DNA of 64,000 bases from Gracilaria domingensis (lineage: Eukaryota; Rhodophyta; Florideophyceae; Gracilariales; Gracilariaceae): positions 90,488 through 154,487 of the forward strand of contig VCMS01000164.1 in assembly GCA_022539475.1 (NCBI GenBank), given 5' to 3'. Below are positions 30,193-58,097 of this stretch, one piece after another. Position numbers and translations under genes: made by a program. Position 1 is the first letter of the stretch. Every line of letters begins with the position of its first letter. The notes beneath the pieces are model-generated. The model ran no database searches and was not told where the DNA came from. It saw nothing but the letters and a program-made list of their open reading frames with translations.

Positions 30193-30201
30193 CGAAGACT
30201 T

Positions 30202-37030: not shown

Positions 37031-37057
37031 CGCCCCCCCGCCGCGGACACGTTCTGG

Positions 37058-37957
37058 CCACATTTTGCCATCATGCCGAGACCTCCCAGAACACCTTCCT
37101 TGACACTTTCCGCACTCATTACGATGCACCCGCTCACTAACACGTTGGCACCGCTGTCCACGTGGATTGGCGGGGAAGCAATGGGCTGTACATAAATGAG
37201 AATGCACTTTGAGAATTAGAAGCGCTTCAAAACGCAGGACCGGAGAGCTCGATTATTGCTTTCATAACTCTAAATCCAGTAAAAAAAACCCCTATCGCGG
37301 GCACATTTTCAGGCAATTTTCCAGGATTCCAACACGTCCCAAAACCCATTATGCCCCATTCCTTGCAGTCGTTTTCTTACGAGCTAACTAAACATCCATT
37401 AGGCAAGCTTCAACTCGTCTCTATCACCCAATTGTTCTTCAACTAGAAACACAATACATAAACTTGTGTTCGCTACAATTTGTGTATTCACTGACACAGT
37501 ACACTATTTACACTGCTCAAAGCAGCGAAGAGACGATATAAAAAGCCCGCCCAGACCCGCACGCACAAAAATGATAATGCACCGCGATTACATGCAGAAA
37601 ACCACAGTGACGACAGTAGTTGGCTACTTAAATACTCACCACCATTGTTTCCGGTTAGGATACAAATTCTACCGATGATGATGATGAGGTATTATCTTAT
37701 AGCATCAGAGCTCTGGCTCTGGCGTTTCATGCATATATCTAAATTTAATTGGTTCGTTCAAACATGCTGCCAATCAGCGATGAAAGTCTTCAACGACCAT
37801 AGAATACCAAATTTATAGGGGTGGTGGAGCTCTCTGCGGAACACGAAAAAGAACTAAATAGAGTCCTGATTGGCTCAATACTCTATTTTCTTCAGCGCTA
37901 TAGAGAACGGGAGCTGCAACATCTCGAATATGCTCAATTCATTCAGTATAAAGATCT
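37058..37957. other. Internal non-coding part of copy 1
   Basis: Homologous to 56430-57360 of copy 2 (inverted), so it belongs to the transposon. No ORF is conserved between the two copies here. It includes a short GATGATGATGATGAGG run near 37676. Confidence 0.45.
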
Positions 37958-38272
37958 ATGGAAGTAGAAAGTGACGAGAGTCGTAAGTTGAAAGCAAAAC
38001 AGATGGTGCTCATGAAAACCGTTCAGCCCGGCTTCCTTCACCTCGTAGCACATGACAATAGTTCCAATGTTGAAATCGTATCAACTTATCTTCCGTTACC
38101 AAAGCCAGTCATCAACAATACAATAAAAAGCATAAGTCGAACTGTTGTGGAGATGCCGTCACATACAACTAATGGTGTTAGTTCTTCTTCTGTTAAGAGC
38201 CGTGATAGAACTTCAGAGTTCTACTTCTGGAGCTTTGAATTGCAGCCCACGTCTTTGTCGAAAGGCGTTTAA
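37958..38272 (+). CDS. Second ORF of Plavaka-like element, opposite strand
   Basis: 104-residue frame starting MEVESDESRKLKAKQMVLMK. The matching stretch of copy 2 (about 56200-56440, minus strand) keeps the same reading frame for about 55 codons, with replacements such as LKAKHMVVMRTLQPGMLGLV and an identical LVAHDNSSN core. It then hits a TAA. Conservation of the frame between two diverged copies argues that it was coding. The family is not recognised. It is divergent from the transposase-like ORF. Confidence 0.45.
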   Translation: MEVESDESRKLKAKQMVLMKTVQPGFLHLVAHDNSSNVEIVSTYLPLPKPVINNTIKSISRTVVEMPSHTTNGVSSSSVKSRDRTSEFYFWSFELQPTSLSKGV

Positions 38273-38450
38273 ATGCTTCAATCTGCGATCGAAGAGACGG
38301 AATAGAGCTTTTATTACATCATGCGTCACGATTGCATCTTTAAATAGTCCAAGCAGCGTCTGAGTACTGATAGAGAATTGTTCTCCTTGGGGCGGTATCC
38401 GGCGCCCCCCATCATATTTTGAAGACTTCCGCCATGAAAGAAAAAACATG

Positions 38451-38738
38451 TCAAGGTCTTTTTATCCTTTGGCCTCCATCATTCCAAGGAGATCTACTTT
38501 GGTGAAGGTTCCATTCAGTGACCTGCTTCTCTTCGGCGTGGACAAATCTAGATACAAACCTCTGGCAGAAAAATTGCATTGCATGGGAGATAGATTTGCG
38601 TTTGTGAAGTTGAGGAGTTAAGTACGTATCGTTCGAAATGGACGTGACGCGGATAATTCTATTGCGGTGTTTAGGGTCTCTGACTACAGGTTCTCGATTT
38701 TGTGGAGTATTAATCAGCTTCAATATGCCGAGATGCAA
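38451..38738 (-). pseudogene. Conserved downstream segment of the Plavaka-like gene
   Basis: 95-codon frame containing RDPKHRNRIIRVTSISNDTY and EEKQVTEWNLHQSRSP. The same segment is conserved at 55714-55947 in copy 2 (EERQVTEWNLHQGRSP). It lies downstream of the transposase-like ORF on the same strand, separated by stops, and may be the remains of the C-terminal half of the transposase or a second exon. Confidence 0.4.
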
Positions 38739-39212
38739 GTTGCGTAACTATTCGAAGGGAGCTCTCCTTGTTCCCAACATACTGCATAGAAACAACATCT
38801 GGATCAATCCTACGGTCAAGGTGGTTTCGATGAACGACAAAAGAAGAGATATGTAATCAGAACGCTTGAGAGTATCCGCCTGGGATATACTCTCCCTCGT
38901 ACGACATATACTTCTTCCTGCCTCGTCTTTATTGGCATATTCTAGAATAAATGAGTATGTATTTCTAACGCTTTGGTGTGGTTTTGAGAGGGTCCAGTGA
39001 ATGAGGTAAGAATATTACTGCATAAAGATGAGGAAGGGGCCTTGAATATATGAAAGGGGCTCCCCGTTTTGGTCCCAAGAAGAATTGACAGAATCTTCTT
39101 AGCTCAAGAAAATCCGCACAAAAACTTGCAGAGCATGCCACACTTGGCTTAGTTTGTCTTCGCCAACGAACGGAAAACTTTTCTACATTAGATTTACAAT
39201 GGGCTGCAGAAT

Positions 39213-40322
39213 TTAACGAAGAGGTTCATGAAGGACTTGCATCCTGGACTCACGTAGAGACTTGCTAGAAACGAATGGCATTGCGTCTGCTTCAGATGCG
39301 GAAACCTCGATCAGTGTGGTAGGGAAGTATGCCACTACTGTGAGGTCATCACGGATGCACTTACGGCGTAGCTCGTTAAAGAAGTTGAGAAATATGAGGT
39401 GAAGAGGATAGGCTGTAACCGATGTTTCCTTTAAAGTTGTTGAAGACTTATCGGTGTATACCTGCAGAAGACCCACGAAAGATTCACTGTAACTTATTTC
39501 TTGGGACCACCACACTATTCTACTATCCAAAGAGCCCATGACCATTTCCTTAAGTTTTGAAGTGGCGTCTCTTGCGAGAGAGCCGGACATGGGGTGAGAT
39601 ATTTTCGTGGAGTGGGTCTGAGGTATAGGGTGGAAAAATGTGTTTTCGTTGCTAGCCAACTGGAGCTGTTTCACAAGCGTCTGAACGAAGTCTCTCGTGT
39701 AGAGGGTGGCGCTGAACTTACATCCTTCTGGCGCGACAGTTCTTCGATTGAAACCGTCTTTTGAGGCGTATCGTTCGAAAATGGCGTTCTTCAGTTCTGT
39801 ACAGCGCTTGGAACTTGTTATGGTCTCGTTGAATCGCTTTTGCGAGAATCGCGGGTCCCGAAGTAGCCCAATTAGCTCGTCTGCTTCACGATGACCAAGG
39901 TTGGAAGCTACTGAAGCCAGACAAACCGTGAGATAATCCATATGCAAATCACCGAGGGCCTCCTCAGAAGGCACTGGGCGGGAACTGTTTCCGTGTTCTC
40001 GCTCTAATGACGCGGGACCTGGGGAAGGAGAAACACAATGCGAAGTGTCCGGGATGGGAGGGGCGGACGGAGTGCGGTCAACGATGTCCTCGGACACCGG
40101 AGGCTCGGGAAGGCGACAAGGGGCAGTGACCGTTTCGGAAGATGCGGGCGCGGGGGCGGAAAGCTTGAGACGCTTGCTTCTTCGAATGGCCGGCCTATTT
40201 TCGTCTTACAGCGCGGCTTTCAGACGAAACGGGCAATGGTTGACATTTTGTTGAAGAGATAACACTCCTCGGCGAGTAACAAACGGGCACCCACGCTTCT
40301 TATGTGTACAGTAGTAGACCAT
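39213..40322 (-). pseudogene. Plavaka-like transposase ORF, copy 1 (one stop)
   Basis: From ATG 40322 a single 370-codon frame runs to 39213, interrupted by one TAA at 40206-40208 where copy 2 has Glu. It starts MVYYCTHKKRGCPFVTRRGV and then QQNVNHCPF, a C2HC zinc finger. A basic stretch (RRSKRLKLS) and a Pro/Ser linker follow. The main domain has MDYLTVCLASVASNLGHREA, FSQKRFNETITSSKRCTELK, ISHPMSGSLARDATSKLK, LLQVYTDKSSTTLKETSV, YPLHLIFLNFFNELRRKCI and LTVVAYFPTT. The TDKS and YPL..L.N blocks resemble the catalytic core start of Plavaka transposases. It is short compared with full Plavaka proteins (~1000 residues). Confidence 0.65.
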
Positions 40323-40934
40323 GGGAAGAAGAAATGAAGGAGAGAGGAGGACAAAGACGGCAAAAGAAGGTCGTCCAAAGGGAGAAGGAGGTCGGGCGAC
40401 AGTCAAGATCGACGTCATGCTGAGAACGGAGAATATATTTTGAGTTTCAATCACGTGCTTTCGTTCAAAAAGAAACGTAGGTTCACGTCGACCTCAACAC
40501 AAGGGTGTACTTCTCGTATTATCTACCACTGGTTATAAACCTGTGTTTTCGCAACGTTGTACGCTGTACACCTGTCCAATCTCGCACAGAAAAATAAATC
40601 TCTTCCCTCCGCCGCCGCCGCCGCGCCTCCGGCGTCCGACCTACCGTTATGTGGATAGCACGGATCACGAACGACACTCCGTCGTACCTTTCTCCGCCGT
40701 AGCACTTGCTACGAAGTAGAGGGCGGGGAAGAGAATGAGGTACGCTTCATGTCCGCCCAATGGACGCCTCCATAAAGCGGACATCATCTGTATCTTACGG
40801 ATGTATTCCGTGCAGTCTTTCCGTACGTGCTTCCATATCCTTCTACGTATCTTTGTTCTAAACTAACCAATCCTCACCACATCTCTTCGCGCTCTGCGAC
40901 ATGTAAACGGCAGGAAAAAGGCTTTGGGTTACTT

Positions 40935-41450
40935 TTGCGAGTTACTAGGTCCCTCGACTTTTCTAGCGCAACGTTTCTGTTTTGCTTTATCAATGGTACA
41001 TTCTATCGCATTTCAAATGTATCCAACCGAGCATTGACTAACTTATGGATACTTTCTGCCTACGTATACAGGTAAATAACTTTTGATGCGGACGTTGCTC
41101 ACGAGTGGCACGTGCAGGTTTTTAGGGGGAACTGCGTTATGTTTGCTGCATGAGCATTCTTGATGTCGTTGCTTGTGAGTTCTCGCTTCGAGACCATTCG
41201 CGTTTTACGATGAATGAATTGCTGGTAATCTAACCGATCATGTTCCTCTTCTTCTTCCTTTTGCGAGTTACTAGGTCCCTCGACTTTTCTAGCGCAACGT
41301 TTCTGCTTTGGTTTATCAATGGTAAGTTCTATAGCATTTCAAATGTATCCAATGGAGCATTGACTAACTTATGGATACTTTCTGCTTGCGCATACAGGTA
41401 AATGACTTTTGATTCCGACGTAGCTCACGAGTTTCAGGTGCAGGTTCCTT
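40935..41450. repeat. Tandem ~326-bp units at the right end of copy 1
   Basis: TTGCGAGTTACTAGGTCCCT occurs at 40935 and 41261, and the segment to CATACAGGTAAAT is repeated. The same units, three of them, are at 52498-53330 in copy 2. Confidence 0.8.
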
Positions 41451-41452
41451 AA

Positions 41453-41486
41453 GTAGGGAACCATGCATCTGGGCATGGTTCCCTAC
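41453..41486. repeat. Perfect 14-bp hairpin at the edge of copy 1
   Basis: GTAGGGAACCATGC and GCATGGTTCCCTAC around a 6-nt loop (ATCTGG). The identical hairpin is at 52457-52490. Homology between the two transposon copies stops a few bases beyond it, so it marks or nearly marks the element end. Confidence 0.85.
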
Positions 41487-42893
41487 ATGAGCGCTTCTCG
41501 AGCGAAAGCTCTCATGGTCGCTCCGATTGACCCTGGCTCGGATACAAAATTAGATTGGTCCACACTGAAGGAGATCAAAGAAGAGCAGTCACCAGCGTCG
41601 GATACACCACCGCGTCGGTTCAAAGACGGCCCCGACGGCGTTCGGAATGATCATGTCATGTGGATACCAGGGGACAGCAGCCTAACGAAGCTCACGGTAA
41701 TTCTTGCCGCCCACACCGGACACGGTGGACACAGAAGTGCAAACGTGACACTCGCTACCACGAAAGCATATTTTTATTGGAAAGATATGGACAAGGACTT
41801 GAAGTCTTTCGTCAGCACCTGTCTGCACTGTCTCTCCACCGATTCGGCAAAGTCCATCCCACGTCCACTTGGCCTTGCCCTACACGCTGACCGCCCGAAT
41901 AAGCTTCTACATTTCGATATCTGTTACATTTATCGTGCAGAAGACGATTTTCTTTACGTACTTGTGCCCAAGGACGACCACAGTGGGTATGTGTGGTTAT
42001 TGCCGACTACGGAAACTACTGCTGGAGTCGTCGCAGAAAGTCTTATCAAGTGGTTTGCGGCGTTCGGTGCACTGCGACAGTGGGTCTCCGACCGGGGCTC
42101 ACATTTCAAGAATGAAGTTGTAAGAATTCTCCCCGAACGCACCAAGTCTGCTCATCATTTCACTCTCGCGTACTGTCCTTGGTCGAACGGAACCGTCGAG
42201 GTAGTATGTCGAGAGCGTCTTCGAGCCACCCGCGCCCTACCATCAAAGTACCAACTGCCGCACAACTGCTGGCCAAGCATAATGCCAGTCGTGCAGTCTG
42301 TGCTCAACAATTCTCTACTTGCATGCCTGGGTGATCGTTGTACTCTAAAAGTGTTGACTGGACACGAGCAGGACACAACACTCGCTGCTTTCACACGCAA
42401 AGTAGGCGATGACACAAAAGTCTTTGACCTAGCCGAAATCAGGGCCACACAGTTACGAAACATCGAGAATGTACAGAGCGCTCTCGAACGTATGCACAAA
42501 GACGTGGCCTTGCGTGCCTCAAAGAAGCGGCGACAGGCAGTGGAGTCTCATAATCGGAAGACAAATGTGCGTCCGATCAACTTTACTGTCGGAGACTTCG
42601 TACTGAGAGGTGTCTTGCAGCGCGACCGCACGCGCAAAACATCTTTGAAATGGATGGGGCCATACCGTCTTTTAGAGTGCCGCTCGGAATACATATTCCT
42701 GATTGAAGATTTGTTGGATACCCCGAAGCAAGAAGTGCATGGCCGCAGGTTGAAGATGTTTCGTAACAAGGACTTTCAGGTCACCCAAGAACTAATAAAT
42801 TATTTGTGCTATCAGCAAGGAGAGTTGCTTGTGATCGACCGCTTCAATGATATTCGCGGCAAGCAGGGACGCATCGGGCTTCAGGTAAAATAG
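41463..42893 (+). pseudogene. Ty3/gypsy (chromovirus-type) integrase, 5'-truncated
   Basis: 476-codon frame whose first ATG lies within the transposon-edge hairpin. Gypsy homology begins near residue 70. The HHCC zinc domain (HTGHGGHRSANVTLATTKAY then CLHCLS) is followed by the integrase core with FDICYIY, VSDRGSHFKN and SNGTVEVVCRE (D-D-E), then the GPY/F-like module (WMGPYRLLECRSEYIFLIED). A stop TAG at 42891-42893 falls where a chromodomain Trp is expected: the same frame continues with RGFSAEEMDWVGLESLQQE to about 42978. The reverse transcriptase half is missing, cut off at the Plavaka-like boundary. Confidence 0.85.
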
Positions 42894-43883: not shown

Positions 43884-44193
43884 TTAACCCTTTCAACCCG
43901 GAACGTTCTTATGTCTCTTTAGATAGACATAAGGACTAGCCAATGAAAATCAGAAGAGAGTGTAGCATGTGTGGAACCTCGTCATGACACACGTTGATTG
44001 AAATGAACCCATGCTGCAATCAACTACGGTAGTGCACTCCAAAGTACTCTGGGTTGAACTTCATGACCTTCGAAAAAGAATCTATGGCTCTATCATCCAA
44101 ACGTGCCGCTACACTTTCTTTACTTCCACAATAGCTCCTTTATCGCTCGTAGGCATCTTCTCACCTACTCCGCATTCTTTACAGTCTTTTACT

Positions 44194-44561
44194 TCCATGG
44201 ACGGCTCGGCAGAACCAAAGGCATCCCCATCCAACGCAAAACAATCAACCAATACACACATTCGGCACATAACGCCTTACAACGAAGACGTTACCTGTTC
44301 AACATGCGGAGGAACTCCGTGCTACTGGATTCAACATGGTACATCAATAGTGTACACCGTAACAGAAACTCTTTCTGCTTCAAAACCAGTGAGCACTTCC
44401 AACGCGAAGCTCGAAAAGGCGCCTATAAGGCGTATGTTTTTCAGCGCTACGGGTTCCTTGGAAAAGTAAATCGCGTCCAAGTTCCTCATTGTGTTATGCA
44501 GAGAATTCGAAGCCTTTCGCCAGATGACAATGGCGCTTACATGGGATTTAAAGAAGCATAG
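44194..44561 (+). pseudogene. Accessory ORF of the piggyBac-like element (Cys-motif small protein)
   Basis: Two overlapping plus-strand frames make one product. The first has MDGSAEPKASPSNAKQST and then VTCSTCGGTPCYWIQHG, a CxxC...C motif. After a frameshift near 44405 the second has ARKGAYKAYVFQRYGFLGKV, NRVQVPHCVMQRIRSLSPDD and NGAYMGFKEA. I recall small proteins with this CxxCG..PC.W and R.Y..YV..hG.LG...R..IP.CV...IR..FP pattern in oomycete and algal genomes. I cannot verify this here. It lies inside the transposon, tail to tail with the transposase (the 3' ends overlap by 25 bases), so an accessory role in transposition is plausible. Confidence 0.5.
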
Positions 44562-46713
44562 TGAAACACAATTAACATCTTAAACAATAACTTTGCCGTT
44601 TTGAAAGTTTCTGTCGTACGATTGATTCTGTTACGTCCTCTCTTTGATGCAAGTGCTTTCCGTGCTTCTTGAATTGCTTGGTAAACATCGGGTCGTGTTG
44701 TTCGAAGTTTCTCCCTTTGATGGTAGAGAGTGAAGCAATTCACATGAAAATCGTGCATGCACTTTGTGCAGGAGTACATCTTGTAACATCTTTTTCTCTC
44801 CTTCGATAATAGATTGCATAAGAGGCAGCGTACACTTTTTTTTCCTTCTGTCTCAAGCAGTAAATGCAGAGATTCGAATGAGGCATTGCTTAGAGCCCTG
44901 CTAGTGTTCGAGTTTCGTGACGAAACACGTTTTCCTAGAGTTTCTCTTTGCTGCTTGTACCTCACATGATCTTCCACCATCTGTATGATTAGCCTCTGCC
45001 TTACTGTAGAAATGTCAATTAGAGCCTCTTCGGAAGTTTTAACGGCCTTCGAAAGAGCGTTTGCGTTTAGGATACTCGCGTCTAGAATGAACGTAAGAAG
45101 GCTCATTGTATCCCACTGCTCTTTTCTGACCGTCGCCGCAGTAGATCGGAATTGGCCAAATCTGTGCGCGCCGTTCATGAACAGGTTGTTGGCAACGACC
45201 ATTGCTGGGACTTGAAAAGTTGTGCGCTGGAGTGATTCGTTCCGTGTCCATCGCTTTAGATTTGCCAGTCCATGGACGCATTTGACTGCGTGATCGTCCG
45301 GAGATTGAATTGGTTTTGTCGGGGTGTCAAGCAAATCGTTCGAATAGAAAGTAACTACAGTGCGGTCTTTGAAAATAATAAAGCCAGCGTTGTCTGCGAC
45401 CTGAACAGTATCGTTTTCTGTCTGAATCTTTTGGTACATTTCCACAAGACGCCAGTCTCCCCTTTTCGCATGCTTGAGGACTTCGATCGCTTCTTTCAAC
45501 CTCGGTCTGCTTATACCGTCGACATTGTTGAAGCGCACTGTTCCTAATATTAGACACTCCTCATCGCTCAAACGATGTACTTTTGGAGTTAGCAGATGAC
45601 GTGTGTAGAAGTTGTCCATGACTACCACACGTCGAAGAGTTTGTTGTGGATGCAGTTGGGTCTGATGGGCCATCTGGGCGCACCAAAGTGCCGACGCGCT
45701 TGATTTCTTTACCAACGAGCTATCCACAGTGCGATCGACAGCACCGAATAGTTTGCGAAACAATGTTGTATATCTTTGCAGTGGCGTTTGACCCGTTTTG
45801 TTGCCGGAACTGTTGTCCTGGAAACTGTGAAGGTAAGCATGTGACCATCCAACAACTGCATAAAATCGTATACCGAATCTGACGGGTTTGCTCTTCATGT
45901 AAGAACGAGCTGCCGTGCGTCCTTTACATCAGACAGTGTTCTCGCCCAAGAACTGACGCCAACGGGTATGGCGAGAGTAGCAGCGTTGCGTGCGAAATAT
46001 TCCAAAAGTTGGCGACTATGCCATAAAGGGTCAGAGAGGGCCACTTCGTGCTCATAAGAAGCATATATTTGCAGTGATTCTCGTATGTTCATGAACGTAT
46101 CCCGACTCAATACTTTTTTGAAGAATGGGATGCCAAGCAGATCTGATGTCGACCAGTAGTCACGGAGGCGATTGAAACGATGCAAAGAAGTAGCGAGCTC
46201 CAGACCCAGATAGGCATACAGCTCGTCCATTCGTAGAGGCTTCATTCTTCTTCCCTGATTGATAAGTGCTCTACTAGTCCAGGCTCTCACGCATTCCAGA
46301 TACGACTTGTTCATGAACAAACTGAAGAGACCACGTTCCTTCTTGTCGGCATACGTTCTCCTTATTAGCGCCTCTTTGGCCAGGTACAGCCCACTTTTCT
46401 CGCGCCATTTTGCACAGTATGGAACGGTCTTGTAGAGATCCATTTCCTCGGCCGCTCCAAGAGCTGTCACTGCAAACTCTTCCTCATCATTCTCATCCCA
46501 ACAGAATTCCCCCACACCTTCAGCGTTACACTCCCATGCGTTTGAAAATACTCCAGAGTCATCATTGGTTTCAAGAATGGCTGCATAAGAAGACATCTTG
46601 GATGAGCTAATGAAGATATCCAAAGAACATGCCGTCCAACATCGACTATTTGGAGAGAAATCATCGAAGAGGGCGAGCTTTTTGGCGAGTACTTCGGCCT
46701 TCGCAAACCTCAA
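44537..46713 (-). pseudogene. piggyBac-like transposase, broken in two frames
   Basis: The N-terminal frame (46713-45895, first ATG 46596) has the piggyBac domain start: MDELYAYLGLELATSLHRFN, RDYWSTSDLLGIPFFKKVL and SRDTFMNIRESL. The C-terminal frame (45898-44537) has MKSKPVRFGIRFYAVVGWSH, VVMDNFYTRHLL (second catalytic Asp) and NNLFMNGAHRFGQFR (the GGVD-type region, here with H). It ends with a cysteine-rich zinc domain (CLLCNLL...CTKCMHDFHVNCF). Between them the expected LDE...KGR segment is recoverable in the second frame upstream of 45898. It needs one base restored in TTC TTGG near 45950, and a TGA stands where Arg is expected. The protein is therefore non-functional. The domestication-like C-terminal finger is intact. 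Confidence 0.85.
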
Positions 46714-46740: not shown

Positions 46741-49207
46741 CTCATTGGACATACAAGGTTGCGCGGGATGAATGACCGGCCGTATCTCGCAGCGCAAATT
46801 TGCGCACCACAGCTCTTTTTCAAAACTGATTTGGTGACGTAAGGGAGCGATACCCTTGCCACGTCGTTGTGATGCTACAAGCGCAAATTTACGATCGGTT
46901 CACAGAGACCCTGAAATGGATGGGCTTATAAGGCGTAGCGATAACCGTCACGTGAAAACGTCGGGGGCACAAGCAAAAAGCCATTGAGTATGGTAGATTC
47001 TCTACAGCTCCGAGAAGGTCCTGATCCTCCAGAAGCTGTTCCCCGTGAACGGTAAGCGAACGTTCATGAAGTCTAGTGATTCGAGACTGCTTGAAGAATA
47101 TGGGATACGCGTTAGGATCGTCAGACACGGAGGCTGCCACAGCAGTGCTGGCTGCGACCGCGGCATATCGACGAGGGCTGCTGCTCGGCCTCTGCAGCGG
47201 GTAAAAGGCGGCCGGAGCCGTTGGGGCAGTTGGCGGTGGTGGCAGAGACGGTAGTAGTGGCGAAATCACTATTTGGCGGCGGAAAGGATTGAAGGCACGA
47301 CAACACCTGGCGTCGTCGTGGTGCGGGGCAGCTTGGTGCGGTTCTCGGTTCCAAACGGGCTTCTGCTCATACGTATACAACAACGTCTCATACTCGATGC
47401 GCAGGATGAAAGCTACTGATGTGCACGTCTTCCGCAGCACTAAGGCATGGCCACCATCTTGAAGGCGCGTGTGCAGATGACGGCATTTAAGCCATCACGT
47501 TCTAGTGTGCATGTGCATCGTTTGTGGAGGCCTAAAAGCACCAAAACCCGCCCAAAAAGAGTTCAGCTGGTGCCCACTATATGGAAGCGCGTGTCTGCGC
47601 ACACCTGCGTCCTCCACTGTTGCATAGTGGCGCGCTTGGCGCCCTTCATCGGATGACGCGGTGCCTTCTGCGAGCGTTTTACGCAGTAAATGAAAACGCC
47701 ATCAACGTTTTCCTCTTCCTCTCTACCCTTCGTAGGTTTTACAGTCCGTGACGATCGCGATGCGCGAGACCGGCGGCTCAGTGCGGTGCGTACGCATCGC
47801 GTGATAGGTGGAGCGGAGAAGACGGGATCCGACAAAATGACGGCGATGGCTGCACAAGTAACGTAGTGCGGCAGGCGGTCGGTTTATAGACCACATTGAA
47901 CAAATTGGTCACAAGAGCAACGGAGAGCAGAGTATGAACCGACGCTGTGGCAGCGCGAAGAGTGGAGGCACCGATCGAAAGTTGCTCGTGGACATTGCGG
48001 CGGAAGGGAAGGCGGTGGTGCCAAACGGTGGTTGGCGAAAATAAACGAACAGACTTGCTTTTCATCGTGTGTTGGAGAGATAAGAAGAGAAACCGAACAC
48101 CTGAGATCAAATTCTTTTGTTTCCAATCGTTGATTTCGCGCAGCGTAGAACAAAAAAGACCTCTATGACATAGTTGCTGACAAAATTTGCTGTAGAAAAG
48201 GTTCTTAAAACTGATGAAAGACTGCTGCTCGGAAGAGGGAGTGAGAGACAAGGGAAAGCTTTACGGAATCGATCCTTGTCATGCGCAATAAAGTGTTGAG
48301 GGAAGCGGTGGAAGGGCGCCGAGTGAATAAATCTTATGAGAAGGGAAAGCGGCTTGGAGACTTAAAGTGTTGCGCATGGCGAGGACTAGTATTGAGAGTG
48401 GCGATGCAGGGGCGACGGCGGTGTGACGTTGATTTGAACCATGTCCCGCGATGTGCGACATGTTACAAATGCTGTTGAACGCTTTGAGTCAATGTATTGG
48501 TATACCAAAATAGTGTTAAATGGAGGGAATCATTTTTGAGTTGTGCCTCGCTCCGCGGCACGACCGAAACGCCATTTGACGCGAAGAGGTGTGCTAGCCC
48601 CGTTCCAGCAGGGTGAGGAAATTTCATCACCTTTTTTTTGGGTGAGATTCAGGTGAAACAGTCCCATCTCACCCGTGCTGAGTGAGCGTGTCCCGCCGTC
48701 GGGTGAGCATCACCCATTTTCCAGGGGAATCGGCCGTGCAACTCACCCACCGGGACCACGCCATCACCCAGCGGGACTGCCTCACCCGAATCAAGACCGT
48801 AATCGGGCACCATTCTCTCTTTGTTCGAACTCGGTTCCAAATGCATAGCAATCAACAGCGTTTGCTTTTCCCTTGCTTTTACAAGCGCCAGCGCTGCTTC
48901 GTCAGAACCACCTTGTACTCAATCGACGCAAACAGCCAATGATCTACGATTTCAATTAGTTCAGACTAATAAAACAAAGTGGCTGAGCACAGGTACTTCC
49001 TTCATATTAGTGCGCTTCGGGTTCGCTTTCACAGAAACCAAAAGACAGGCGTATTTGGCAGATCACGCACTTAGATATTAAGAACGGCGATGAGGCAACG
49101 CAAACTGCCCGTGCTTTAAGAAAGAACCTTTTTCGTGAAGTCTACAGTACAATTCGCTACAAACTAAGGAAGCCACGTGAATGCAGGTACGCTTTAAAAT
49201 GTTAAGC
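46741..49207. other. Region between the two piggyBac-related genes
   Basis: Contains minus-strand frames at 46889-47440 (183 codons, Pro/Ala-rich centre) and 47778-48251 (157 codons). Neither has a recognisable domain and both could be chance. A cluster of GGGTGA motifs (48599-48790) is listed separately. No RNA gene is seen. Confidence 0.35.
48599..48790. repeat. Cluster of GGGTGA / TCACCC motifs
   Basis: About ten copies of GGTGA(G) or its complement TCACC(C) lie within 190 bp in both orientations, several as inverted pairs around short spacers (for example GGGTGAGCATCACCC at 48700-48714). Such density is unusual. It may be a binding-site cluster or the stem of a complex hairpin. Confidence 0.5.
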
Positions 49208-50881
49208 TTACTCCTGGATGTTGTTATTACCATTAGTTTTAACCTCTAGCTCTTCCCGGTCTTCTTCCGAAATTTGAGCCCGAATCAAAACAGTCTGAGT
49301 GTGCCAAGTTTCCCAGCACTGCGAGCAAATGGCCTGTCGACAAATTACGCACCACTGGCGCTGTCGTGAACCACCTTTCTTGCGGTACTGCTTTCCTTTC
49401 TTTGTGATAGTGTGACTATACGAGCACAACGCGCAGTATGTATCCTTTCCTTTCACAATCCTGTGAAGCGATCTTTGTTCTAATCTTCGCCCTCTGTTTT
49501 CATCTCGATTATACATTTCTACTACATTTCTGCGGTATAGCGGTGCAATGGGGCGTTCGATAGTGAGCAATGGATCATAGTTCAAATTTTCATTTGTACT
49601 TGCACATGTTAGAGTAGCTGTTGGAGACGCTCCCGCAATCACACAGTATTCCTTAGCCAATTGCCTCGCAAATTCAGAAAACGAAGCACACTTTGAAACG
49701 TTCTTTCGTATTTGGCGGTATCCATATCCGACTTTGTCTTTAAATCTCTCTGGTAGCTTTCCTTTCCTCTTCGCCATAGAAAGCCGATGCAAAACTGCCG
49801 CATTATTAACTTGAGCGCACAAAAGACGCCCAATGATGCTGACAATTGGATTCTCTGCTTCGTTGGTGTAGCAAAGGCTGGTCATCGCACGACTAAACTC
49901 ATCGACCCCCCCTTTCAAGTAGTTCCAATAAACGAACGCAGTTGGACGAATCATCCTTGCTGGGGGGAGAGTTCCAGACATTCGAACGAGACTACGGTAT
50001 GCGTCACTTAGAGAATAATATGACGCAAAAGAATATAAGTCCGAGGCATGTGAGGTTTGTAGCAGATCATCATACTCCTTTGGAATAAAGTCCGAGCCCT
50101 TTCCGACCCAGTCAAAAGCACCGACCCGCAACGCAGAATTAGTAAAGCCATAATTATTCTTCAAGGACTCGTGAAAGTCCACAATCGAGACATAAATGAC
50201 TTTTCCAATACCGCAGTTACTACCCTTTGCCTGCACAAACATAACTGACTTCAGGTTCAAGGTAAGAGCATGATGCAGGCACTGAACTCGGTACTCCGTA
50301 GTTGGTAAAAGCTCATGGAATTGCTTCAAAGAATCCTCGTTTCGACCAATATCTTTGATCATAGTTATCGCAGAAAACTTTTGTTTCCGCTTTCGAGCTT
50401 CCTCAATCGTGTTCAGAGTAGTCAAAGTCTTGATTTCTACTGCGCAAACTTGACATTCCCCTTCACTGTCTTTGAAACTTAAAATTGCATCTGGACTGTC
50501 TGCCTGCATGGCCTCTGACTTGGACGCAACCAGGCCAACGGTTCGAATGTATTCAATTCTGATTCGGTGTGCACTGTACTGCGCATCATTGGAAGTAAAG
50601 AAAGAACCTATTGTCACGCTATTCTTCTCAAAAAAGACTAAGAGAGAGTTCAGTACTTGCTGCTCATTGAAACTCCCTTCCTTCATTCCTGCAGTACTCA
50701 CGAGAGGCTTCATCACCCAAGACGTCAATGACCTTCTGTATAACCGATCAAGAAGCTTCTTCTTTTTAGCTTCTTGTCTCTGGGAAGGTGTTAGGGTGCT
50801 TTCTGTTTGATTGGAAAGAGTGTCAGTAGTACTGCACATTAAGTGGCACCCATTTACATAGATTAGCACCCGTTTAAGCAT
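49208..50881 (-). CDS. PD-(D/E)XK nuclease fused to piggyBac transposase C-terminus
   Basis: Intact 557-residue frame from ATG 50881. Residues ~60-220 look like a YqaJ/lambda-exonuclease-type PD-(D/E)XK nuclease: E73 in FNEQQVLNSL, D131 in QADSPDAILSF, E149-x-K151 in CAVEIKTLT, and a Gln motif Y197-R-V-Q200 (YRVQCLHHAL). Residues ~310-480 match the C-terminal part of piggyBac transposases, with VYWNYLKGGVDEFSRAM (last catalytic Asp, D327), RLLCAQVNNAAVLHRLSMAK and a linker. Residues 483-527 form the cysteine-rich finger (YCALC, CVIC, CSQCWETWH). The first two transposase catalytic segments are absent: the nuclease occupies their place. The neighbouring piggyBac-like element (44.5-46.7 kb) is a separate gene. 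The first ~30 residues lie in a 146-bp sequence duplicated upstream, so the start could be an acquired one. Confidence 0.75.
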   Translation of the reverse strand: MLKRVLIYVNGCHLMCSTTDTLSNQTESTLTPSQRQEAKKKKLLDRLYRRSLTSWVMKPLVSTAGMKEGSFNEQQVLNSLLVFFEKNSVTIGSFFTSNDAQYSAHRIRIEYIRTVGLVASKSEAMQADSPDAILSFKDSEGECQVCAVEIKTLTTLNTIEEARKRKQKFSAITMIKDIGRNEDSLKQFHELLPTTEYRVQCLHHALTLNLKSVMFVQAKGSNCGIGKVIYVSIVDFHESLKNNYGFTNSALRVGAFDWVGKGSDFIPKEYDDLLQTSHASDLYSFASYYSLSDAYRSLVRMSGTLPPARMIRPTAFVYWNYLKGGVDEFSRAMTSLCYTNEAENPIVSIIGRLLCAQVNNAAVLHRLSMAKRKGKLPERFKDKVGYGYRQIRKNVSKCASFSEFARQLAKEYCVIAGASPTATLTCASTNENLNYDPLLTIERPIAPLYRRNVVEMYNRDENRGRRLEQRSLHRIVKGKDTYCALCSYSHTITKKGKQYRKKGGSRQRQWCVICRQAICSQCWETWHTQTVLIRAQISEEDREELEVKTNGNNNIQE

Positions 50882-50966
50882 CTGCTCCTTTCACTATTAA
50901 AGCAGTGCTGAGGAGAACCAGACACACAGTCTTGTTCTCCAACGCCTCACTACGCATTCGCTCTCA
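50822..50966. repeat. 146-bp direct repeat, copy a
   Basis: Near-identical to 51616-51765, starting GTCAGTAGTACTGCACATTA and ending ACTACGCATTCGCTC. It covers the 5' end of the nuclease-piggyBac ORF. Confidence 0.9.
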
Positions 50967-51615
50967 CAGGTTAATGGGCCTACGGGCAGGCTGCCCTCGC
51001 ATCTACGATGCTTTTATTGTATTCTAGTCATTGAACAGAGTACATTTTCATGCCGAATCTTTCTTTTTCGCACATTTCACATCCGTAACCGCAATTTAAG
51101 CACATCTTTTTTTCTTTTCTCGTGCTGAACTTTATCAAAAGGAGCAGCACTACTTAAGATGGCAGTCGGTTCCTGACAAATTAATATAGAAATGATGCCG
51201 GAGGCTGAAGAAGATAGTAAGAGATTTGGTTTCTTTAATTGAATGGATAACTACCGCGACAAATTACGTGGACACCATTCAAGTTTTTCAACCGCCTTTA
51301 ATGTCGGTACTTATTGGAAGCGCTTTCAATGCGAACCAAGGATGATTGTGTTGAGCCACGCACTAAACATTTACACCAGGCCATAAGGAACTGGGTGTGG
51401 TGAACAAAGCACAACAAATATAATTTTTATGGTGGAACAGAAATATCACTGTAACCACTATATTTATTTTGCTGGATTACTTCAATGATTGTAATTCTTG
51501 GCCTATTTCTTAACACTGAACAGAACAGTTCAAATCTGGGGCACACCTACTGTAGATTTCGACCGCCTACCGCTTCACAGTCCTACCACTGTAAACCCGT
51601 ACCGATCGAGGGGGG

Positions 51616-51765
51616 GTGTCAGTAGTACTGCACATTAAGTGGCACCCATTTACATAGATTAGCACCCGTTTAAGCATCTGCTTCTTTCACTATTAAAGCA
51701 GTGCTGAGGAGAACCAGACACACAGTCTTGTTCTCCAACGCCTCACTACGCATTCGCTCCCACAA
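51616..51765. repeat. 146-bp direct repeat, copy b
   Basis: Second copy of 50822-50966, with only one or two differences. About 650 bp of unrelated non-coding sequence lies between the copies. A duplication during an insertion or repair event would explain the arrangement. Confidence 0.9.
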
Positions 51766-51896
51766 AGAGAAACTGTTCCACTGCGAACGTTGTTCTGTAG
51801 ACTTAGCACTTTCTCAATCAGCAATGCCTTTAACAATGACTGTGATTGCCGATGACCAATTGAGGCCATCATAGACAGTATTTCATTTTTAGTCAT
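51693..51896 (-). CDS. Short frame upstream of the nuclease-piggyBac gene
   Basis: 67 codons from an ATG at 51896, starting MTKNEILSMMASIGHRQSQS, then LLKALLIEKVLSLQNNV. Amphipathic helices are likely. It runs into duplicated copy b. It could be the displaced original N-terminus of the nuclease-piggyBac protein, or chance. Confidence 0.25.
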   Translation of the reverse strand: MTKNEILSMMASIGHRQSQSLLKALLIEKVLSLQNNVRSGTVSLCGSECVVRRWRTRLCVWFSSALL

Positions 51897-51946
51897 TGCA
51901 TTGAGAGATTCAGTACTACTGTCTCTTGCAGATGCTAGTTTTTGGC

Positions 51947-52048
51947 GAGGGTCGTCCAGAAAGTGGCAAGGGTCGTCCAGTAAATTTTTTGAAAAAATAT
52001 CGAGATCAATTATTTCAAAATTTGAAGATAATTGCTTGGGTCGTCCAG
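51947..52048. repeat. Three GGGTCGTCCAG(A/T) motifs
   Basis: The 12-mer occurs near 51949, 51970 and 52037 in the same orientation. An AT-rich stretch separates the last. Possible protein-binding repeats; function unknown. Confidence 0.45.
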
Positions 52049-52413
52049 AATCGCTGTGCAGTAAATACTGGTGGGTTTTCCACTCGTGCTAGTTCTTTAG
52101 TCGAGGGCTACCTGAACGGTATTTCGCGAAGTCTAGGTTCAGTTTCCATTAAGGTGCACATTACACGATACCTTCTGCAGAATGATACCCTGCAACGCAT
52201 GGAATACTGCTGCTAGTACAGATGATGTCTATTATGAAATCATACCGTTTTATTCGTATCTATTTTTCTATCGACCGCTTTTGCTAACCACTACTTCGCT
52301 ATATTGCATGTACCATTTCCCCATGATGAAGCGGGTGTAGGCGCAATCTGCGGTAGATGCCGCAGAGGGCACCTGCACCAAATTGCGGTATCGGTAGAAC
52401 ACATACGCACTCC

Positions 52414-52446: not shown

Positions 52447-52497
52447 CGTTCCTCATGTAGGGAACCATGCCCAGATGCATGGTTCCCTACTTGAGGA

Positions 52498-53330
52498 ACC
52501 TGCACCTGTAACTCGTGAGCTACGTACGCATCAAAACTCATTTACCTGTATGCGCAAGCAGAAAGTATCCATAAGTTAGTCAATGCTCGGTTGGATACAT
52601 TTGAAATGCAATGGAACGTACCATTGATAAACTAAAACAGAAACGTTGCCCTAGAAAATTCGAGGGACCTAGTAAGCCGCAATAGGAAGAAGAAGAAGGA
52701 AAGGGATCGGTTAGATTACCAGCAATCCATTCATCGTAAAACGCGAAAGGTGTCGAAGCGAAAACTCCCGAGCAACGACACCAAGAATGCCCATGCAGCA
52801 AACATACCGCAATTCCCCCTAAAAACGTGCACCTGCAACTCGTGAGCAACGTCCGCATCAAAAGTCATTTACCTGTATACGTAAGCAGAAAGTATCCATA
52901 AGTTAGTCAATGCTCCATTGGATACATTTGAAATGCGATGGAACGTACCATTGATAGTGCAAAACAGAAACGTTGCGCTAGAAAAGTCGACGGACCTAGT
53001 AAATCGCAAAAGGAAGAAGAAGAAGAAAAGGGATCGGTTAGATTACCAGCAATCCATTCATCGTAAAACGCGAAAGGTGTCGAAGCGAGAACTCACAAGC
53101 AACGACACTAAGAATGCCCATGCAGTAAACATACCGCAAGATGCGATAAACGAGAATGCAGCCTATGTCCCAACCAAGTACCAGAATCGCCTATCCCGAA
53201 CAGTGAGGCAGGTAAACGACCAATTCCATTTCCTCTTTCAAGATCAAGTTAGTCAATGCTCCGTTGGATACATTTGAAATGCGATGGAACGTACCATTGA
53301 TAAAGCAAAACAGAAACGATGCGCTAGAGA
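52498..53330. repeat. Three tandem ~327-bp units, left end of copy 2
   Basis: AGTTAGTCAATGCTC occurs at 52574, 52901 and 53247. The first two units are complete and 327 bp apart. The third is partial at its start. They are equivalent to 40935-41450. Confidence 0.85.
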
Positions 53331-53632
53331 AGTCGAGGGACCTAGTAACTCGCGAAAGTAACCCAAAGCTTATTTTCTGCCGTGTACATGTCGCAGAGCG
53401 CGAAGAGACGTGGTGAGGATTGGTTAGTTTAGAACAAAGATACGTAGAAGGATATGGAAGCACGTACAAAAAGATTGCACGGAAAGACTGCACGGAATAC
53501 ATCCGTGAGATACGGATGATGTCTGCTTTATGGAGGCGTCCATTAGGCGGACATGAAGCGTACCTCATTCTCTTCCCCGCACTCTACTTCGAAGCGAGTG
53601 CGAGGGCGGAGAAAGGTACGACGGAGCGCCGC

Positions 53633-53711
53633 TCGTGATCCGTGCCATCCACATCCTCGCGTTCTACTCCGCCGGAGTAGAACGCGAGGATGTGGATGGC
53701 ACGGATCACGA
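53633..53711. repeat. Perfect 79-bp palindrome (39-bp arms, 1-nt centre)
   Basis: Positions 53633-53671 are the exact reverse complement of 53673-53711, with a single C between. The sister copy has only one arm-equivalent (about 40660-40690), so the second arm was added in copy 2 by a templated inverted duplication. Confidence 0.95.
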
Positions 53712-54041
53712 CGGTAACGATAGGTCGGACGGCGGAGGCGCGGCGGCGGCGGCGGAGGGAAGAGATTTATTTTTCTGTGCGAGATTGGACAGGTGTACAG
53801 CGTACAACGTTGCGAAACCTCAGGTTTATAACCAGTGGTAGATAATACGAGAAGTACACCCTTGTGTTGAGGTCGACGTGTACCTACGTTCCTTTTTGAA
53901 CGAAAGCACGTGATTTAAACTCAAATTATATTCTCCATTCTCAGCTTGACGTCGATCTTGACTGTCGCCTGACCTCCTTCTCCCCTCCAATGACCTTCTT
54001 TTGCCGTCTTTGTCGTCGTTTCTCCTTCATTTCTTCTTCCC

Positions 54042-55161
54042 ATGATCTACTACTGTACACATAAGAAGCGTGGGTGCCCGTTCGTTACTCGCCGAGGAGT
54101 GCTATCTCTTCAACAGCATGTTAACCGTTGCCCGTTTCGTCTGAAAGCCGCGCTGGAAGATGAAAATAGGCGGCCCATTCGGAGAAGCAAGCGTCTCAAG
54201 CTTTCCGCGCCCGCGCCCGCATCTTCCGAAACGGTCACTGCCCCTTGTCGCCTTCCCGAGCCTCCGGTGTCCGAGGACAGCGTTGACCCCACTCCGTGCG
54301 CCCCTCTCATTCCGGACACTTTGCATTGTGTTTCTCCTTCCCCGGGTCCCGCGGCATTAGAGCCAGAACACGGAAGCAGTCCACGCCCAGTGCCTTCTGA
54401 GGAGGCCCTCGGTGATTTGCATATGGATTATCTCACGGTTTGTCTGGCTTCAGTAGCTTCCAACCTTGGTCATCGTGAAGCAAACGAGCTGATTGGGCTA
54501 CTTCGCGACCCGCGATTCTCGCAAAAGCGATTCAACGAGACCATAACAAGTTCTAAGCGCTGTACAGAACTGAAGAACGCCATTTTCGAACGATACGCCT
54601 CAAAAGACGGTTTCAATCGAAGAACTGTCTCGCCAGAAGGATGTAAGTTCAGCGCCACCATCTACACGAGAGACCCCCGTTCAGACACTTGTGAAACAGC
54701 TCCAGTTGGCTAACAACGAAAACACATTCTTCCACCATATACCTCAGACCCACTCTACGAAAATATCTCACCCCATGTCCGGCTCTCTCGCAAGAGACGC
54801 CACCTCGGAACTTAAGGAAATGGTCATGCGCTCTTTGGATAGTAGAATAGTGTGGTACTCCCAAGAAATAAGTTACAGGGAATCTTTCGTAGGTATTCTG
54901 CATGTATACACCGATAAGTCTTCAACAACTCTAAAGCAAACATCGGTTACCGCCTGTACTCTTCACCTCATATTTCTCAACTTCTCCGACGAGCTACGCC
55001 GTAAGCGCATCCGTGATGACCTCACAGTAGTGGCATACTTTCCTACAACACTGGTACAGGTTTTCGCATCTGAAGCAGACGCAATGCCATTCGTTTCTAG
55101 CAAGTCTCTACGCGATTCCAGGATGCACATCCTTCAAGAATCTCTTCGTCAAGTCCTGTAG
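54042..55161 (+). pseudogene. Plavaka-like transposase ORF, copy 2 (one frameshift)
   Basis: Starts MIYYCTHKKRGCPFVTRRGV with the C2HC finger (QQHVNRCPF), and is in one frame to about 54690. A one-base shift then moves the product to the frame 54691-55161 (QLQLANNENTFFHHIPQT to LRQVL-stop). It has the same domain order as copy 1, including HVYTDKSSTTLKQTSV and LTVVAYFPTTL. Here the codon that is TAA in copy 1 is GAA. Each of the two copies is broken at a different place, so both derive from an intact ~372-residue ORF. Confidence 0.65.
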
Positions 55162-56600
55162 CAAATTATACATCTAATGCAAAAAGGTTTTCAGTTCATC
55201 GGCGAAGACGCAGTATATCGAGTGTGCCATCCTCAGCAAGTTTTTGTGCGGATATTCTGAGGCTAAGGACATTCTGTCTACTCTTCATAGGAGCCAAACG
55301 GAAAGCCCTTGTCATAGATGCAAAGCCCCTCCCTCATCTTTAGGCGGTAATGTTCTTACGTCATTCACTGGACTCTCCCAAAACCACACTAAAAGCGTCA
55401 GAAAGACATACTCAGTTATTCTCGAATATGCAAAGAAAGGCGAAGGAGAAAGAAACTTACGTCGTACAAGGGAGACGAGATCCAAGTCGGATATTTTCAT
55501 GCGTTCCAATTCCATATCTCTCATTCTCTCGTCCATCAAAATCGCCTTGACCGTAAGATTCATCCAGGGGTTATTTCTATGCAGTCTGTTCGAAACAAGG
55601 AGAGCTCGCTTCGAACAGTTACGCAACTTGCATCTCGGCATATTGAAACTGATTAATATTCCAGAAATCGAGAGACTGTAGTCAGAGACCCTAAGCACTG
55701 CAATAGAATCATCATGTTTCTATTGCAGTGCTTAGAGCGGATGATCCGCGTCACGTTCATTTCGAACGATACGTACTCAAATCCAGAAGTTTACAAACGC
55801 AAATCTATCTTCCATGCAATGCAACTTTTCTGTCAGAAGTTTGCCTTTAGATTTGTCCACGACGAAGAAAGGCAGGTTACTGAATGGAACCTTCACCAAG
55901 GCAGATCTCCTTTGAATGATGGAGGCCAAAGCATACAAAGACATTGACATATTTTTCCTTTCATGATGGAATTCTTTGAAATCTGATGGGGAGCGCAGGG
56001 CACGGCCCCAATCAGAAAAATTTTCTCTCAGTACTCGGACGTTGCTTGGAATAATTATAGGTGCATTAGTGGGCCATGATGTAATGAAAGCTCTATTTCG
56101 TCTCTTCGGTGGCAGATTGAAGCCTCCAAATGCTGCTCGACAACGTAGTCGGCAGCAATTCATAGCTCTGGAAGTGGAACTCTGAAGTTATAACGGCTCT
56201 TAACAGAAGAAGAACTAACACCTTTGGCAGCATTTTACGGTATCTCCACAACACGTCGATTTATATCTTCTCTTGTATTGTTGCTGACAGGCCTTGTTAC
56301 CGAGAGGCGAAGCGATAGGAGTTCAATATTGGAACTATTGTCATGTGCTACAAGCCCAAGCATGCCGGGCTGAAGGGTTCTCATAACTACCATATGTTTT
56401 GCTTTCAACTACCACTCTGGTTGCGTTTTTCTTCCATAGATTTTTATACTGAATGAATTTAGCATATAGGAGCTGCTACAGCCCCCGTTCTCTAAACCTG
56501 TGAGGATCATGTAGTAGTTAGCTGATCAAAACTCCATTTGGTTCTTTTAGTGTTCCGCAGAGAAATCCACTACGACTATAATTCAGGGATTCTATGATCG
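55162..56600 (+). other. Downstream part of copy 2 with decayed coding segments
   Basis: Includes the segment conserved with 38451-38738 (55714-55947, EERQVTEWNLHQGRSP). On the minus strand it also has the counterpart of the copy 1 second ORF (about 56200-56440), closed by a TAA. Many stops separate them. Confidence 0.45.
55691..55735. repeat. Perfect 18-bp hairpin
   Basis: CTAAGCACTGCAATAGAA and its exact complement TTCTATTGCAGTGCTTAG flank a 9-nt loop. The sister copy near 38690 has only the left arm followed directly by the downstream sequence, so the right arm is an inverted insertion. Confidence 0.9.
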
Positions 56601-57370
56601 TTGAAGGCCTTCTTTGCTGTTTACCAGCCCGTCAGAACGAACCAATTAAATTTCGATATTAGCGTAAAAAGCCAGAGCCGATGGGCTCATGCTAGACGAT
56701 ATTACCTCATCTACATCATCGGTGGATTTGTATCTTCACCGAAAACAAGAGTGGCGAGTATTTTAAGTAGCTACCTACTGTCATCACTCTGTTTATCTGC
56801 AGCTCATCCCGGCGCATTACCACTTTCGTGCCTGAAAGTGTTGAGGCGCTTTTGTAGTTCGTCACCGTGCTGCTCTGAGCAGTGTAAATAGTGTAGTTTG
56901 TCAATAAGTACACAACTTGTAGCAAACACATGGTCGTGAGTTTTTTTTACTAGATGAGCATCATTTGGATACGAAAACTAGTTGAGTCTTGTCTAATGAA
57001 TGTATATTGTGCTTGCAACAAAAACACTGTGAGTAATGCATCAAACTGTGTTTTGGGAGGTTTGGAAACGCTGCAAAACGGTTTAAAAATTTGTCTGTGA
57101 ACAGGTGGTTGTAGTGGATTTAGACTTATGCGAGTAATCGCTCGAATTGTGCTTTTTAAGAGCTTATAATACTCGAGATATACTCTCATTGATGTATAGC
57201 CGGCGTTGTATATACAGCTCTTTTACCTCCCGCCAATCCACGTGGCCAGCAGCGTTCACGTGTTGGCGGGCAGGTGCACCGTAATGAGTGCGGGAGGTGT
57301 GGAGGAAGGTGTTTTGGGAGGTCTCTGCATGGTGCCAAAATATGGCCAGAACGTGCGCGTGGGCGTGGGG

Positions 57371-57634
57371 GGGGGTCGGTTGGGTTAGGGTGGCTACCCT
57401 AACACAACCGGACCCCCCCGTCCGCGGGCACGTTTTGGCCGGTTTTCTAAAAAATGTGCTTTTTTATGCCTGCGGGCGGGGGGGGTCGGTCGTGTTAGGG
57501 TAGGTACCCTAACACGACCGGACCCCCCCGCCCGCGGGCACGTTTTGGCCGATTTTTTGAAAAATGTACGATTTTATGCCCGCGGGCGGGGGGGTCCGGT
57601 CGTGTTAGGGTACCTACCCTAACACGACCGACCC
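57371..57634. repeat. Array of three palindromes, copy 2
   Basis: Palindromes at 57371-57418, 57481-57530 and 57591-57634. The middle one has 16-bp perfect arms (CGGTCGTGTTAGGGTA) around GG. Spacers carry CCCGCGGGCACGTTTTGGCC. Period about 110-118 bp. Confidence 0.85.
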
Positions 57635-57726
57635 CATCCACCCGCGGGCACGTTCTCGCCTCATTCTGGTAGCGTCCACAGACCTTCTAAAACACACACC
57701 GCACGCAACGCCAGCCAAAACGTAGC

Positions 57727-58097
57727 GCATGCTGTTCGAGCTGAAGCGCCTCGCTGACGCGCGCGAGGGCGCGCATTCCCGTGCGCGGCGCACTCCGCGC
57801 GCGGCTGTCTCGCGCCGCAGAGCTGTGCGTCGTCGATGTGACGTGGCGCGCGACGCCTTCCAATGTGCGCATGTTGCGCGCTTCAGTCATTTTATGCGCG
57901 CTGTACGTGCAGTACAATTGCGCTAGGCTCCTTCGCGCTCCACCCCCGCGTGCACTTCCGCGTGGGGATCGCTGCCGTTGCCCGTCATCACTGGCACCCT
58001 GCCATACCGCCCGTAAACCACGCCCTCCGTTCGCTCACGGACCTCGCTTCCAGCCTCCCGAACTTTCGCGCGCGCCACTCGTTCACCGTCGCCGCCA
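57727..58097. other. GC-rich sequence, no gene recognised
   Basis: Begins exactly where Plavaka-like homology stops. It is CG-rich, like the other pseudogene blocks. No domain is found. Confidence 0.35.

Follow-up and report, generated by a model that had tools for sequence, protein, structure and literature searches.

A putative lambda-exonuclease/YqaJ-type nuclease joined to a piggyBac-like C-terminal part, encoded by a gene split by an LTR element in the red alga Gracilaria domingensis

Introduction

Can a lambda-exonuclease/YqaJ-type nuclease and the C-terminal part of a piggyBac transposase reside in one protein? The question is raised by an open reading frame, P0001, found in the window, that is, the whole 64,000-nucleotide stretch of Gracilaria domingensis contig VCMS01000164.1 analyzed here. 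An initial annotation of the DNA read P0001 as such a fusion. A nuclease fused to a piggyBac end-binding tail would suggest nuclease action at transposon ends, and a single protein carrying both parts could be purified and tested. We examined the frame itself, each of its two halves and the surrounding DNA, and weighed the fusion reading against four other explanations. The features discussed below are listed in Table 1.

Table 1. Features of the locus, with positions numbered from the first base of the window
Feature	Position	Strand	Remark
P0001 ORF	49208-50881	-	Codons 1-20 LTR-derived; codon 21 straddles the junction
Native part of P0001	49208-50818	-	Codons 22-557
YqaJ/lambda-exonuclease-like region, about residues 35-245	50147-50779	-	Profiles against shuffles, motif order
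PD-(D/E)XK core (putative), residues 129-151 (SPD...VEIK)	50429-50497	-	Aligned to the SPDG and E-x-K columns
piggyBac-like segment, residues 312-380, including GGVD	49742-49948	-	Similarity to piggyBac
Cys-rich zinc-binding segment (predicted), residues 483-527	49301-49435	-	Sequence pattern; profile stretch 474-532
LTR element, 944 bp, TRIM-like	50821-51764	+	LTRs 50821-50968 and 51617-51764
Target-site duplication AAGAG, gene-body side	50816-50820		
Target-site duplication AAGAG, upstream side	51765-51769		
Displaced 5' part of the frame	51765-52088	-	Open to the stop at 52089-52091
Neighboring piggyBac transposase, decayed	44537-46713	-	DDE_Tnp_1_7, E 7.9e-15, first of two overlapping frames
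piggyBac-like left terminus TTAA-CCCTTTCAACCCGG	43884-43901	+	Beyond the 3' end of the decayed piggyBac

The reading frame and the LTR element that splits it

P0001 was found to be a single uninterrupted ORF of 557 codons on the minus strand, as the initial annotation had it, and the motif residues named there (E73, D131, E149-x-K151, Q200 and D327) stand exactly at the positions given. Judged by the frequency of stop codons in the window and counted from one given place, 536 open codons are expected with a p of about 4e-9, a value uncorrected for how many places the window offers. A codon-preference measure derived from eight other window ORFs, which comprise retrotransposon and piggyBac frames and one Band_7 gene, was positive in 20 of the 21 sub-windows of the P0001 frame and mostly negative in the five other frames across it. 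The sole negative sub-window (residues 276-325; -0.02) sits just behind the junction of the nuclease-like and piggyBac-like halves. Since the sub-windows spanning that junction (residues 226-275 and 251-300) were positive, we take P0001 as a single coding sequence, not two pseudogenes read jointly.

A 149-bp direct repeat, identical at 147 positions between its two copies, occurs at 50820-50968 and 51616-51764. The repeats contain a 148-bp LTR unit of the form TGTCAG...CACA, the polypurine run GAGGGGGGG stands directly before the right copy (51608-51616), and AAGAG is found outside both ends; the segment between is therefore a small LTR retrotransposon inserted in the 5' part of the P0001 gene. 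We term it TRIM-like from its small size and LTR anatomy, its coding capacity being judged by size alone. The element is antisense to the gene it splits, with its orientation judged from the polypurine run. When the empty site was rebuilt by joining about 30 bases of each flank, the original frame read straight through. The displaced 5' part of that frame has its first in-frame ATG at 51892-51894 and showed a positive codon preference in three of four windows, the fourth of which contains the stop; if this ATG was the start, the protein before the insertion comprised about 580 residues.

Because the ORF starts inside the left LTR, residues 1-20 of P0001 are LTR sequence. The protein had been described as intact and as the only undamaged transposon-related gene in its cluster, and both descriptions have to be withdrawn, as the LTR element divides the gene. 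The copy in this window is probably broken, and its product would be devoid of the native N-terminus. The insertion looks fairly recent, as the repeats differ at only 2 of 149 positions, and this recency could be the reason why the remaining frame is still open. Apart from the LTR element, three copies of GGGTCGTCCAG were noticed at 51949-52048, close upstream of the ATG at 51892-51894. A search found four matches, including a one-mismatch copy elsewhere, against 0.83 expected, with as many in 2 of 100 shuffles. They are possibly regulatory or subterminal repeats.

The N-terminal half and its likeness to lambda exonuclease and YqaJ

The N-terminal half of P0001 carries G69-x3-E73, S129-P130-D131, E149-I150-K151 and Y197-x2-Q200, in this order. 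We compared residues 22-250 with profiles of increasing breadth. The smallest was built from 9 sequences (lambda exonuclease and eight phage relatives), and the second, of 11, included the Laribacter exonuclease and Mimivirus R354 as well. The largest comprised 62 sequences, namely 51 IMG/VR proteins added to the 11 of the second profile. The 51 were drawn from 80 IMG/VR loci after omission of L090-L117, which are 92-100% identical to the query, and of the fragment L161; a further 80 near-identical lambda loci were left out of the profiles. Own shuffles scored better than the native residues in 2 of 500 cases with the 9-sequence profile, in none of 2000 with the 11-sequence profile (1 of 5000 on a rerun) and in 1 of 5000 with the 62-sequence profile. 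R354 had joined the profiles after its spacing was seen to resemble that of P0001, so the runs without it are cleaner; with the resulting 61-sequence profile, 2 of 5000 shuffles scored better. P0001 ranked top among the 1323 stop-to-stop ORFs of the window with the 11-, 62- and 61-sequence profiles, in a ranking that favors long ORFs.

In the profile alignment, D131 coincided with the Asp of the exonuclease SPDG motif and E149-x-K151 with E-x-K, and the 62-sequence profile placed G69-x3-E73 on the conserved G-x3-E in a second stretch of negative score. A pattern of the four motifs occurred in 60 of the 62 exonucleases, in 1 of 100,000 shuffles and in one of the 1323 window ORFs, namely P0001, although its spacing limits had been widened after P0001 was seen, so as to include it. 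Three looser forms matched 38, 45 and 145 per 100,000 shuffles. The first motif pattern, fitted to P0001, was dropped, as it matched 0 of the 62 true exonucleases.

Curated libraries and structure prediction gave a different picture. The Pfam search proposed in the initial annotation returned neither YqaJ (up to E 10) nor DDE_Tnp_1_7 for P0001, and PHROGs yielded weak unknowns alone. phmmer with the whole of P0001, the only form in which the N-terminal half was compared with PDB sequences, found none up to E 1 in a set that includes piggyBac and lambda exonuclease. hhalign against the 9-sequence profile reported a probability of 3%, pairing SPD and leaving E-x-K unpaired. The single-sequence AlphaFold2 model of residues 46-234 was unusable (pLDDT 44.3); a fold search with it gave no match at E 0.001 (best 0.84, an unrelated protein), and the resemblance of its strand order to a PD-(D/E)XK core is given no weight. 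Altogether, the claim of a YqaJ-type nuclease stands on motif order and on profile scores near the top of the shuffles but not on any Pfam match, and we regard such a domain in the N-terminal half as likely but unproven. Its limits, at about residues 35 and 245, were set by inference.

The piggyBac-like tail and the missing catalytic core

In the C-terminal half, D327 of G324-G-V-D327 corresponds to piggyBac's third catalytic Asp, in a stretch that is weak alone (5.0 bits). Further downstream, C483, C486, C511, C514, C519, C522 and H527 form the pattern C-x2-C-x24-C-x2-C-x4-C-x2-C-x4-H, which we take to be of the piggyBac Cys-rich domain type. Against a profile of Trichoplusia ni (T. ni) piggyBac (PDB 6x67), piggyBat (9c0f) and the window's own piggyBac copy, residues 236-557 reached a total score of 12.2 bits, while the best of 1000 shuffles reached 8.1. 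Two stretches in collinear order make up the match, one at residues 312-366 and one at 474-532 (6.2 bits for the latter); when only the best stretch counted, 3 of 1000 shuffles equaled or beat it. Among window ORFs outside the training set of this profile, P0001 was the best (E 0.021; next 0.62). When T. ni piggyBac was the only reference, a single shuffle of 500 was as good as residues 236-557 and none of 500 was as good as residues 250-400, and the core of the alignment pairs RPTAFVYWNYLKGGVDEF of P0001 with KPQMVMYYNQTKGGVDTL.

The comparison of the tail with the window's own piggyBac copy was not significant, 59 of 500 and 25 of 500 shuffles being as good. With residues 236-557 as query, phmmer retrieved neither piggyBac nor any other PDB sequence up to E 10, and Pfam reported no piggyBac zinc ribbon in P0001, leaving the Cys-rich domain uncalled; the sole Pfam matches of the tail were weak and of IBR/B-box type. 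AlphaFold2 again gave an unusable model (residues 250-557; pLDDT 35.6), with which a fold search produced no match at E 0.001 (best 0.022, an unrelated protein). Thus, the retention of GGVD and the zinc finger, as annotated, is borne out by the two collinear profile stretches but finds no Pfam or phmmer match.

The first two catalytic blocks of piggyBac had been annotated as absent, and we likewise found neither D1 nor D2 in P0001 or in the frames of 47001-51952. DDE_Tnp_1_7 was detected by Pfam neither in P0001 nor in the six frames of 47001-51952. Residues 22-249 were no closer to T. ni piggyBac than shuffled sequence was: 354 of 500 shuffles scored as well, in a comparison with a piece that begins after D1. 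Nor did they resemble the second frame of the window's piggyBac, for which 100 of 500 shuffles were equally good. The stretch before GGVD carries SPD-x17-E-x-K. Judged by its sequence, in which neither catalytic block turned up, P0001 is probably not a DDE transposase by itself.

Surroundings and relatives

A decayed piggyBac transposase lies 2.5 kb from P0001 on the same strand, split by a frameshift and reading NGAH where GGVD is expected. The piggyBac-like left terminus beyond its 3' end has no right partner at TTAA within the window. A search for this terminus allowing up to 3 mismatches found 9 matches against 4.2 expected, a number equaled by 4 of 100 shuffles. The scattered other matches carry 2-3 mismatches, and only the terminus at 43884 itself stands at TTAA with at least 10 of 16 bases matching. 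Searching the window, we found no TTAA-flanked pair of inverted termini that encloses the P0001 gene. A single element may have spanned P0001 and the neighboring piggyBac, but this reading was set aside because no right terminus turned up. A 15-bp inverted repeat (49138/51790) was dismissed as a pair of termini, since one of its arms falls within the displaced frame.

On a larger scale, imperfect inverted arms of about 4.9 kb (36669-41491 and 52452-57727; 83% identical overall, rising to 95% in the best 960 nt) flank the piggyBac and nuclease-like genes on both sides. The arms carry Plavaka-like fragments, namely 39213-40097 (E 5.9e-6, just below Pfam's cut-off) and its counterpart 54042-54713, for which Pfam gave no match, and 110-bp tandem units with internal palindromes lie at their outer ends. 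The arms may be the long inverted ends of one giant element, or they may represent two facing copies; En/Spm elements of 16-20 kb are mentioned for Chondrus crispus in the relevant passage of PMC6431247. Elsewhere in the window, two regions, 340-4939 and 25347-30514, are bounded by near-identical direct repeats (249 nt, 99%, and 300 nt, 100%), contain retrotransposon-like ORFs and look like two Copia-type LTR retrotransposons, the family being assigned by inspection of the ORFs. An Rfam search of 34000-60000 gave no match.

No relative of P0001 was found in the viral or prokaryotic genome collections. tblastn against phages returned only two records of one phage at E 1, which are not credible. 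Queries with R354 and with Vibrio-phage exonuclease led to no relative either, and the second frame of the window's piggyBac had no relative in viral contigs.

Weighing the explanations

The sequence evidence behind both domain assignments is weak but consistent. The explanation that we favor, at about even confidence, is that the gene encoded a YqaJ-type PD-(D/E)XK nuclease followed by the C-terminal part of piggyBac, and that the product assisted a piggyBac-type transposon as an accessory nuclease. Of piggyBac, the protein would retain the GGVD helix with the segment that follows and the Cys-rich DNA-binding domain, but neither D1 nor D2. Such a tail may target the protein to the ends of the transposon or onto a transposase dimer, where the putative nuclease could trim or resect DNA ends or intermediates. 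We infer the folding of P0001, its nuclease activity, its binding to ends and its partnership with a transposase. The fusion put forward in the initial annotation is favored by most sequence tests, but neither half has a Pfam or PDB-sequence match, the N-terminal half having met PDB sequences as part of the whole protein.

P0001 could instead be the YqaJ-type second protein of an ISL2EU- or KolobokE-like transposon, its tail being a generic zinc finger and its piggyBac likeness a short convergent motif. The sections of PMC9587614 that deal with KolobokE describe a lambda-exonuclease-like nuclease and record Kolobok in rhodophytes, and the Pfam and phmmer results for the tail, with IBR/B-box and without piggyBac, would suit this idea. 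The tail, however, outscores 499 of 500 shuffles in one comparison with T. ni piggyBac, 500 of 500 in the other, and 1000 of 1000 by total profile score, with GGVD and the Cys-rich segment in order; the ISL2EU families treated in the relevant part of PMC4482050 are all from animals; no THAP domain was detected in nine scanned window proteins or the six frames of 47001-51952, and the transposase pieces in the same scans were of piggyBac, Plavaka and integrase only. We consider this explanation unlikely. Two observations favor a piggyBac-derived host gene or self-limiting factor, either domesticated or acting as a repressor that occupies the ends and competes with the transposase: neither D1 nor D2 was found, which makes a stand-alone DDE transposase unlikely, and the frame remained open next to a decayed piggyBac gene. 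Yet that frame is interrupted by an LTR element with 2 mismatches between its 149-bp repeats; the copy for this reason does not look maintained, and we hold domestication or repression to be improbable.

Still less probable, in our judgment, is that one or both resemblances arose by chance and that P0001 is an orphan transposon-associated protein of undefined fold. Each similarity is weak singly and was tested after the initial annotation had named it, and neither half matches a curated library or a PDB sequence, but both halves lie at or near the top of the shuffles and of the 1323 window ORFs, and their motifs are collinear. Least probable of all is a diverged complete piggyBac transposase with an unrecognizable N-terminal half. 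The piggyBac look of the C-terminal half is what speaks for it, whereas residues 22-249 behave as shuffled sequence does in both comparisons and SPD-x17-E-x-K precedes GGVD in place of a DDE core. The initial annotation had reasoned that a full DDE domain upstream would reduce the N-terminus to a diverged piggyBac domain; Pfam detects none in the six frames of 47001-51952, and as residues 22-249 bear no piggyBac similarity either, that reduction is unsupported.

Returning to the nuclease-piggyBac fusion, we propose only tentatively, and lean against it, that P0001 stands for an undescribed piggyBac-derived class whose DDE core gave way to a lambda-exonuclease-type nuclease and whose end-binding tail persisted. 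The weight of the finding is bounded by its basis, one disrupted copy with no relatives in the collections searched. If the replacement is true, a nuclease would be addressed to transposon ends, with or instead of the normal transposase, and the chemistry of excision or repair would be altered.

Comparison with known systems

Among proteins of known type, T. ni piggyBac (PDB 6x67 and 5lme) shares with P0001 the GGVD segment, the region following it and the C-terminal Cys-rich domain. It differs in that P0001 has a nuclease-like domain in front, with neither D1/D2 nor the N-terminal half of piggyBac found, another spacing of the zinc ligands and no phmmer match. Lambda exonuclease and YqaJ (PDB 1avq, 3syy and 5yet) have G-x3-E, (S)PD, E-x-K and Q in the same order, and Mimivirus R354 likewise has a long spacer between SPDG and E-x-K. 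On the other hand, P0001 reads SPD-Ala, not SPD-Gly, separates E73 from the GL strand by a longer stretch than the phage exonucleases do, and matches no curated profile.

DNA transposons that encode a comparable nuclease have been described. ORF2 of ISL2EU, of the PHIS/Harbinger-like superfamily, is a YqaJ exonuclease-domain protein with a DNA-binding part, according to the portions of PMC4482050 and PMC9179366 concerned with it, and P0001 would resemble it in combining a putative YqaJ-type domain with a predicted DNA-binding part and in probably stemming from a DNA transposon. The ISL2EU protein is separate and stands beside a THAP/HTH DDE transposase, whereas the nuclease-like part of P0001 is fused to a piggyBac-type tail. 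ISL2EU elements are recognized by that transposase partner and a 2-bp AT target duplication; no THAP/HTH DDE transposase was seen among the window proteins scanned. KolobokE, of the Kolobok superfamily with TTAA target sites, has a lambda-exonuclease-like nuclease downstream of the Kolobok transposase domain in the account of PMC9587614, as far as it covers this family; in P0001 the nuclease-like part precedes a partial piggyBac in which D1 and D2 were not found. Pfam, which may not include a Kolobok model, detected no transposase domain in the six frames of 47001-51952. For the DEDDh exonuclease of KolobokD, a passage of the same source proposes the degradation of intermediates, a role comparable to that envisaged here, and the functions of additional transposon ORFs such as the ISL2EU YqaJ protein are called unknown in the passage of PMC4482050 that mentions them. 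Teratorn, in which piggyBac and a fish herpesvirus are combined, also joins piggyBac machinery with foreign gene content, but whole elements are fused there, not the parts of one protein, as outlined in a section of PMC6431247.

Among the open full-text papers listed in our searches, and in the passages of PMC4482050, PMC9179366, PMC9587614 and PMC6431247, we met no piggyBac protein fused to such a nuclease. The description of P0001 as a new architecture would apply to the piggyBac fusion but not to the nuclease, since ISL2EU and KolobokE carry comparable ones: we rate transposon-carried lambda-exonuclease-type nucleases as already known and the fusion as the new part. P0001, as a candidate for the same association on a piggyBac background, bears on the question of why DNA transposons as unrelated as ISL2EU and KolobokE carry a lambda-exonuclease-like nuclease.
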